Assembly (NCBI GenBank): GCA_030431575.1
Contig: JAUIIS010000003.1
Coordinates: 1 to 61,278, forward strand
DNA: 61,278 nt
Direction of reading: 5' to 3'
Origin: Acidimicrobiia bacterium
GTDB taxonomy: Bacteria > Actinomycetota > Acidimicrobiia > Acidimicrobiales > UBA8592
The translations under genes were made by a program, and so were the position numbers. Shown here one piece after another: positions 16,602 through 18,860 of the stretch. The stretch's first letter is position 1; each line of letters opens with the position of its first letter. Under the pieces are notes generated by a model. It did no database searches. It was not told where the DNA came from and worked only from the letters and a program-made list of their open reading frames with translations.

Positions 16602-16605
<4 letters not shown>

Positions 16606-17870
16606 CCAACCCCCCAGTCACCAACAAGGCGCTGTTCGCACGCGGCCAGGCCGTCATGCCCGGAGGGGTCAATTCGCCCGTGCGGTCATTCCGTTCGGTG
16701 GGTGGCACCCCGTATTTTGTCGACAATGCCGAGGGCCCCTACGTTTGGGATGTCGAAGGCAACCGGTACATCGACTACGTGATGAGCTACGGGCCCGGCA
16801 TCTTGGGCCACTCGAACGTGGCCGTCATCGACGCCATTCAACAAGCCGCTGGGCGTGGCACCTCCTACGGTGCGCCCACGTTGGGCGAGATCGAAATGGC
16901 CGAAGAGCTCTGTGCTCGCGTGCCCGGCCTTGAAATGATCCGTCTCGTGTCCAGCGGCACCGAAGCAACCATGTCGGCAATTCGTTTGGCTCGCGGGGCA
17001 ACCGGCCGTGACAAGATCGTCAAGTTCGCTGGTCACTATCACGGCCACGCCGATGCACTGCTGGCTGCCGGCGGCAGCGGGGTAGCCAACCAAGGGCTGT
17101 CGGGCTGCGACGGTGTCCCTGCAAACGCCGTGGCAGACACCGTGGTTGTGCCGTGGAACGTTGTCCCGGAGCTTGACGACTCGGTGGCGGTCCTTGTGGT
17201 CGAACCCGTGCCTGCGAACATGGGGTTAGTGCCAGCTCGCGACGGGTTCCTTCAAGAGCTGCGCGCTGCCTGCGACGCCAACGGCACGTTGTTGATGTTT
17301 GATGAGGTCATCACGGGCTTTCGCTTGGCCCGGGGCGGAGCGACCGAATGGTTCGGCATCCAGCCCGACATCTGGGCGTTCGGCAAGGTCATCGGTGGGG
17401 GCCTGCCCGTGGGGGCGTATGGAGCCTCAACCGAGCTAATGCAACACATTGCCCCCCTTGGAGGCGTCTACCAGGCCGGCACGCTCTCGGGGAACCCGTT
17501 GGCCACTGCAGCGGGTCTCACCCAGTTGCGGCTGCTGACACCCGACGCCTACGCCCAACTGGAGGCAACTGCCACACGACTACAGGCTGGCCTTGCTTCG
17601 GCGTTTGCCGGTGCGGGCGTGACCGCCATTGTCCCTCGGGTTGGCCCTTTGGTGGGGTTGTTCTTCACCGACACCCAACCCACCAATTTCGACGAAGCCC
17701 AGGCCGCTGCCGAAAACGGCGTCTACCCCCGTTTCTTCCACCAGATGCTCGATCGCGGCATTGCCCTGGCCCCGGGCGCCTACGAAGCCATGTTCCCCAG
17801 CCTGGCCCACACCGACCAAGTCATCGACACCACCATCGCGGCCGCCCGCGAAGCCGCCGCCGCGCTGTAG
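16602..17870 (+). CDS. hemL: Glutamate-1-semialdehyde 2,1-aminomutase
   Basis: MPGGVNSPVRSFRSVGGTPYFV; VSSGTEATMSAIRLARGATGRDKIVKFAGHYHGHAD; LLMFDEVITGFRLARGGATEWFGIQPD; GKVIGGGLPVGAYG. Confidence 0.95.
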
Positions 17871-17873
17871 GGG

Positions 17874-17927
17874 GCGTGAGCGAAGCCCCCGGCCCTAGCG
17901 GGCCAGTTTGGGGGCTTCGCTTCACGC
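17874..17927. repeat. Nested inverted repeat downstream of hemL
   Basis: GCGTGAGCGAAGCCCCC (17874-17890) pairs with GGGGGCTTCGCTTCACGC (17910-17927) with one bulge; inner hairpin GGCCC-TAGC-GGGCC. Confidence 0.85.
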
Positions 17928-18052
17928 ATATCTTTGCCGCAAGGCTCATTCCGCTTCGCTTCATTCGCGCTGCGGATTTTCCGCTGCCCGGCCCGGCTGT
18001 GGCGCCTTTTGGTGGTCTGCGGGTGGCCGCGGCGTGTGTCGGGGATGCCAAT

Positions 18053-18136
18053 GGGGTCGGGTGTGGTGCATTTCATTTCGATGGTCGGTGTGGGGTCAGT
18101 GTTGTGTGTGAAATGAAATGCACCACACCCGACCCC
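18053..18136. repeat. Long palindrome: 27-bp perfect arms, 30-nt spacer
   Basis: GGGGTCGGGTGTGGTGCATTTCATTTC (18053-18079) and exact reverse complement (18110-18136). Confidence 0.97.
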
Positions 18137-18197: not shown

Positions 18198-18860
18198 CTA
18201 GGTGGTCGGCCCCGGCGACCGAGGCCCGAAGAGGCGCAGGCCGAGGATTGCGCCGATGATGCCTCCGGTGGTCGACAAGGTGAGGTCGCCAATGGTGTCG
18301 CCGTAGGTGAGGCCGAGGCCGCCGCCGGCCCCGGTCTCCTCAACGGCCCATTCCATGATTTCCCAGGCGACGATGGCCAGGGCCCCAAATCCGGCGCCAA
18401 CAAGCACGGCGTCGACGGTGGAGTTGGTGCGGCGAAACCGAAAGGCTTGGAAGGCCATGACCAGCAGGATCCAGTTGGTGCAGTGCAGCACGTCGTCGGT
18501 GACGGCGAAGTTGTCGTAGAAGCCGAACAGGTTGCCCAGGGTGTCCACCAGAAAAGGGGCCACGACCAACGCATCGGCCACGTGCGGGTAGGGGTCGCGT
18601 TTGGTGCGACGAACCCATTCGACAAAGGGCACTACCGCTGCGGCACCCACAAAGAGCGGAATGCGCATACCCATCGCCTTCCCCTCGAGATGGTCGAGTG
18701 GCACCAGGATGGCGATGGCGAAGGCGACGAGGATGCCTACCTTCATAGCGATGTTGCATTTGCGGGCTAGCGGCGACGCATCGATGAGCTCGATGCGAGT
18801 GCCGAGCCTGCCTGACGCCGTATTGGTCATCTCTTGCTTCGTGGTGGGTTGGGTCCCCAT
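18198..18860 (-). CDS. Polytopic membrane protein, DUF2238/YjdF-like
   Basis: Several TM segments; VDTLGNLFGFYDNFAVTDDVLHCTNWILL and YGDTIGDLTLSTTGGIIGAILGL resemble DUF2238. Confidence 0.55.
   Translation of the reverse strand: MGTQPTTKQEMTNTASGRLGTRIELIDASPLARKCNIAMKVGILVAFAIAILVPLDHLEGKAMGMRIPLFVGAAAVVPFVEWVRRTKRDPYPHVADALVVAPFLVDTLGNLFGFYDNFAVTDDVLHCTNWILLVMAFQAFRFRRTNSTVDAVLVGAGFGALAIVAWEIMEWAVEETGAGGGLGLTYGDTIGDLTLSTTGGIIGAILGLRLFGPRSPGPTT

Follow-up and report, generated by a model that had tools for sequence, protein, structure and literature searches.

A long and perfect palindrome between two convergent genes raises the question of whether it acts on the transcripts that end there, serves the chromosome as a site in its own right or was brought in by a mobile element. 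The one considered here lies in an Acidimicrobiia bacterium, within a stretch of 61,278 nucleotides that was analysed whole (hereafter the window), in a 327-bp intergenic gap between hemL and a membrane-protein ORF. Read directly from the sequence, its two 27-nt arms are 100% complementary and enclose a 30-nt spacer, which makes a total of 84 bp (18053-18136; Table 1), and they form the sole perfect long inverted repeat in the window (arms of at least 16 nt, within 150 nt of each other). The coordinates and complementarity given in an initial annotation of this locus are thereby confirmed. As single-stranded DNA, the element has a predicted fold of -33.4 kcal/mol (z = -9.3 relative to dinucleotide shuffles, 0/200 of which equalled it), in which both arms jointly build one stem and no hairpin forms inside a single arm. 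No terminator-like or promoter-like site was detected at the gap and the 30-nt loop is too long for a standard terminator, which bears out the annotation's view that the palindrome is not one. On its hemL side, the hairpin adjoins a separate dispersed repeat, module B, with 42 partial matches across the genome that are frequently arranged in tandem arrays. Module B itself contains a 12-bp inverted repeat (AGCGAAGCCCCC/GGGGGCTTCGCT).

Table 1. Features of the palindrome and its surroundings, with positions in the window.
Feature	Position	Strand	Basis
Left arm, GGGGTCGGGTGTGGTGCATTTCATTTC (27 bp)	18053..18079	+	direct read, genome arm search
Spacer/loop, 30 nt; A/C-rich on the minus strand (26/30), polarity common to the family	18080..18109	-	
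Right arm, exact reverse complement of the left arm	18110..18136	-	direct read, genome arm search
Outer 3' flank in family polarity, minus strand ATTGGCATCCC	18042..18052	-	
Outer 5' flank in family polarity, CACTTGGCAGACCGCCACTTGTCC; also in copies L009, L011, L014, L025, L031	18137..18160	-	
Module B, separate dispersed intergenic repeat adjoining the hairpin	17871..18052	+	
hemL (glutamate-1-semialdehyde aminotransferase), upstream convergent gene	16602..17870	+	gene order same in relatives
220-aa membrane-protein ORF, convergent neighbour	18198..18860	-	

The palindrome is one member of a family. In the source genome (4.17 Mb in 518 contigs, 83% complete, a fragmented metagenome-type assembly), targeted searches, from which all genome-wide statistics on the family come, returned 70 matches to the arm with up to three mismatches and none for a reversed-pattern control, which excludes a chance origin. 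These 70 matches resolve into 34 dimers, whose spacers measure 29-35 nt, and only 2 lone arms, so that the doublet is the repeated unit, as in REPINs. The annotation had proposed searching this and other genomes for the 27-mer, and would have abandoned its reading had the sequence been unique with diverging arms; there are instead 34 dimers here, with near-identical arms, and none in the other genomes searched. When the 34 dimers are used to build a covariance model, it recovers precisely these, each once per strand, with no weaker match, and it found no decayed dimers (150 of 1345 first-look candidates scored). Past ~11 bp, the flanks of most copies are unrelated. Exact 27-bp arms could cause assembly misjoins between copies; the correlation between flanks and spacers described below argues against widespread chimerism. 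The inner TGGGGTCAG that had been pointed out in the window spacer is present, and is incidental, only L020 among the other 33 spacers having a GGGGTC/GACCCC match. A PHROGs search gave nothing useful.

A search for REP-associated tyrosine transposases, which had also been recommended, connects this family with an enzyme. There are two Y1 transposase genes in the genome, one on contig C388 (RAYT1) and one on C476. RAYT1 (266 aa) is followed, ~100 bp past its stop, by a full dimer and preceded, ~75 bp before its start, by a single inverted arm (26/27), which makes a unit of ~1.1 kb with the same terminal inverted repeats (TIRs) at its ends; the rough probability of finding an arm by chance no more than 120 bp away on each side is ~2e-6. 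Its HUH/tyrosine motifs, SNHFH (residues 58-62; H60-x-H62) and YVHKNP (residues 119-124; Y119-xxx-NP), are conserved in a 21-sequence comparison and agree with the NH[VYF]H and Y---NP signatures. The protein matches Pfam Y1_Tnp above cut-off and, when searched alone against Pfam, gives no HTH match; a profile of RAYT1 and its relatives matches the C-terminal part of DnaA (2hcb, 1l8q; E ~4e-4). In its AlphaFold model (pLDDT 85.5) C-terminal helices are present, and the top fold match is 4er8, that is, E. coli TnpA-REP with a REP hairpin bound, then the ISDra2 and IS608 transposases, with a weak DnaA fold match (8btg). RAYT1 thus has the C-terminal DnaA_C/HTH-like extension of TnpA-Y1 subclass 2.1, for which a match to the C-terminal part of DnaA has been reported, and no REP-like hairpins in the survey concerned (Quentin et al., 2018; PMC6006769). 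With 48.9 bits against NF047646 (REP_Tyr_transpos), it falls under the 80-bit cut-off for the REP transposase equivalog.

The nearest named relatives of RAYT1 are from Ilumatobacter and Acidimicrobiales. Most of the 37 relatives inspected across phyla (Acidimicrobiales, Verrucomicrobia, Desulfuromonadales and others) have GGGGTCA-type TIRs ~1 kb apart, and those of the same order have TIR variants of their own in 13/29 cases when a strict GGGG-type pattern is applied. One relative, L053, comes from genome G041, in which there are 127 exact copies of the cognate arm GGGGTCAGGCACTT, many as inverted pairs; gaps within these pairs are 1-17 nt and triplets also occur, in what is a far larger TIR-dimer family. 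The second transposase of our genome, on C476, has palindromes of GGGGTCAG / GGGGTCAGACCCTCAACGTTTA-type on both sides, which have only the GGGGTC start in common with the RAYT1 arms. This second family (GGGGTCAGACCCTCAACGTT...) comprises 13 dimers, of which 2 have perfect arms, and 5 lone arms, with spacers of 31-44 nt (L043:811-892, 1924-2007; L178-L194), and a copy on C437 was picked up with a generic palindrome pattern. These findings support the notion of a common GGGGTC tag followed, for each such transposase, by an arm sequence of its own. Another GGGGTC...GACCCC palindrome, at G000:C327:8569-8645 with GGTTTGTC/GACAAACC inside, possibly represents a third family. Next to RAYT1 (L026:2013-2080), the single arm sits between direct repeats GTTGGAAAGGTGTTGGG, the first of which is preceded by a truncated GGGGTC (order GGGGTC-repeat-arm-repeat), and a half copy also adjoins the dimer, at L034:1117-1143; this could be the trace of a transposition or recombination event.

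Elsewhere, the arm was found in none of 40 relatives, in none of 297 other genomes of the order and not in IMG/VR. The pattern GGGGTCAGNNNNNNTGCATTTCATTTC had no match in GTDB genomes either, a weaker test in that the GGGGTCAG-form excludes the commoner GGGGTCGG arm. In four sister-genus genomes, the stops of hemL and the membrane gene are separated by -4, 1, 7 and 13 bp, with no hairpin. These near-zero junctions indicate that the 327-bp insert (element, module B and a short flank) is lineage-specific, the comparison being cross-genus and the insert taking in module B, so that exact insertion ends are not derivable from it.

The perfection of the arms had been read as a sign of recent mobility or of selection on the structure. 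The window copy and the one on C127 have ~300 bp in common, in which the right flank (148/178), left flank (41/54) and spacer (23/31) have diverged by 17-26% while the arms are identical at 54/54 positions, for which the chance at ~18% divergence is ~2e-5. Across the family, 22/28 stem pairs are invariant and 99.7% of stem cells are paired, and the spacers have a mean identity of 41%. Two-sided (compensating) changes affect 4 pairs, one of them in the neighbour set of the loop-closing pair and counted within the 28-pair stem, compared with 0.3 in shuffles (0/500). The arm changes in L039, L040 and L041 are matched on both sides, and one-sided changes inside the 27-bp arms occur only in L019 and L036. 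The loop is strongly polarised, with a mean absolute AC-GT difference per length of 0.39 versus 0.14 expected and 0.17 in random 31-mers of the window. Orienting the copies by this A/C polarity brings out a consensus in the 3' outer flank, about NNTGGAAA.CC, which ends at ~position 11 and in which T hardly occurs at positions 4-7, 9 and 10. The possibility that the outer flanks extend the hairpin was rejected, left and right flanks of one element scoring 2.2 versus 3.8 in random pairings (over 11 positions); flanks of one element are thus unlike each other, which means that the element is polar and its stem no longer. Copies with similar spacers also tend to have similar left flanks (Mantel r=0.25, p=0.0005). 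Copies therefore appear to be inherited as flank-arm-spacer-arm-flank units whose arms were kept identical during divergence. The correlation of spacers also argues against independent insertion into similar flanking repeats, a process that could mimic arm conservation. Identical arms in diverged surroundings, paired changes and a polarised loop together imply that the hairpin is maintained, by selection or by arm-to-arm copying; recent mobility does not account for the perfect arms.

Our preferred reading, which we hold with good confidence, treats the 84-bp palindrome as a REPIN-like element that is non-autonomous and consists of two inverted 27-bp TIRs of a TIRYT/RAYT-type HUH transposase, RAYT1, around an unstructured loop. 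It has behind it 34 intact, intergenic, lineage-specific dimers, a transposase bracketed by the same arms and a stem maintained with compensating changes, from which we infer cleavage and mobility of the element. RAYT1 would recognise the folded hairpin in single-stranded DNA and nick and join near its foot, whereby the element would be copied or moved into intergenic gaps, possibly at the replication fork, as is known for HUH/Y1 enzymes. Pairing and recognition, or the copying of one arm from the other in the formed hairpin, would keep the arms identical as loop and flanks drift. What sits badly with a simple transpose-then-decay scheme is that there are no decayed copies and that arms are identical in diverged surroundings.

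These two observations, together with the paired nature of arm changes, are what a hairpin maintained by the host would also produce, its dimers having been co-opted as chromosomal sites (for 3'-end processing, as a readthrough barrier between convergent genes or as a site for DNA binding, perhaps by the DnaA-like domain of RAYT1) in which site-level selection keeps the arms perfect. Placement is suggestive in this respect. Our home-made, codon-usage-based gene calls place all 34 copies outside genes, although ~92% of the window is coding, and 13 lie between convergent, 15 between tandem and 1 between divergent genes (5 being unresolved), as compared with 4/47/4 convergent/tandem/divergent pairs in the window. 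However, the absence of the arms from every other genome searched and the hairpin-free junction in relatives make a required host function unlikely, loop polarity is unlinked to gene direction or GC skew, and the linkage to a transposase would be left unexplained; we consider co-option improbable. The polarity results themselves speak against two roles for the loop, namely an RNA-strand function (the A/C strand is sense in 7 cases and antisense in 8) and a replication-strand preference (16/28 relative to contig GC skew, Spearman p=0.28, a weak test on short contigs).

That 28/29 resolvable copies lie downstream of at least one gene, and that the stem is very stable, would also suit an intrinsic terminator or another RNA hairpin acting on the flanking convergent transcripts. 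Such a role is nevertheless very unlikely, since the short-loop G+C stem followed by a U-tract that defines terminators is missing, the loop is much longer than theirs, termination does not need an identical 27-bp sequence at all loci, there is no strand bias relative to transcription and the only Rfam matches, to miRNA hairpins, lie far below threshold, with no family above its gathering score. The arm could in principle also have spread by passive duplication of whole intergenic blocks, module B included, with no involvement of the transposase. The correlation of spacers with left flanks, the ~300 bp common to the window and C127, and the presence of module B, at varying distance and truncation, beside ~11/34 elements are in keeping with this, but most copies have unrelated flanks beyond ~11 bp, two different transposases are each bracketed by their cognate arm family and the arms are much better conserved than the surrounding blocks, which leaves passive duplication scarcely credible.

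Among known systems, the REPIN-like element preferred here comes close to the TIRYT/TIRtron group, in which GGGGWSAS terminal repeats sometimes form dimer families (Di Nocera et al., 2013; PMC3733652), rather than to canonical GTAG-tagged REPs. As in that group, an HUH/Y1 transposase with Y---NP and a C-terminal DnaA/HTH-like domain is encoded by a gene bracketed by inverted repeats that start with GGGG and recur, also as dimers, elsewhere in the genome. Unlike in that group, almost every copy is a perfect dimer of 27-bp arms with a loop fixed at 29-35 nt, and the main arm, which reads GGGGTCGG, departs from GGGGWSAS at position 7, whereas L039 and L041, two variant copies, fit it, as does the second family (GGGGTCAG). 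The resemblance to REP/RAYT-type palindromes that had been suggested thus holds for a dispersed family tied to a RAYT-type tyrosine transposase and fails for REPs in the strict sense, because the arm begins with GGGGTC, has no GTAG/GTGG foot (GT[AG]G) and needs its partner to make a hairpin. REPINs have ends that do not vary, spacers that are variable but constrained in length, and compensating changes (Bertels and Rainey, 2011; PMC3116915). The element shares these features with them, as well as its inverted doublet, hairpin potential, extragenic location and RAYT linkage; it differs in arms that lack a GTAG foot and are not themselves REP hairpins, in an unpaired, A/C-biased loop and in ~34 copies versus hundreds. 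Invariant ends, variable spacers and compensating changes are therefore not new in kind, and what sets the element apart is how extreme they are here, together with its link to TIRYT and its open, polarised loop. RAYT1 has the HUH fold of the IS200/IS605 enzymes (IS608, ISDra2), from which similar single-strand chemistry would be expected, yet it is single-copy, with long inverted-pair TIRs rather than short subterminal hairpins and Y---NP rather than Y---Q. The element is also reminiscent of MITEs, as a short non-autonomous palindrome whose TIRs are common to a transposase gene, except that no target duplication is seen and the transposase is HUH/Y1, not DDE.

A bolder idea, which we regard as possible though rather doubtful, is that the two arms of a hairpin are actively rewritten, each from the other, through hairpin-templated correction, or that selection for a DNA-hairpin function preserves them site by site. 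What began as a transposon TIR would by now be a stable chromosomal hairpin that corrects itself and whose A/C-rich loop is obligately open.

Few studies have dealt with TIRYT-associated repeats, a branch of the REP/RAYT world for which this genome offers a clean case. It combines a transposase and its one cognate hairpin family with junctions that are empty in relatives, and a second transposase, whose own family is more decayed, provides an internal control. The combination of invariant, covarying arms with a diverging, polarised loop turns how short bacterial palindromes keep perfect symmetry into a testable question.
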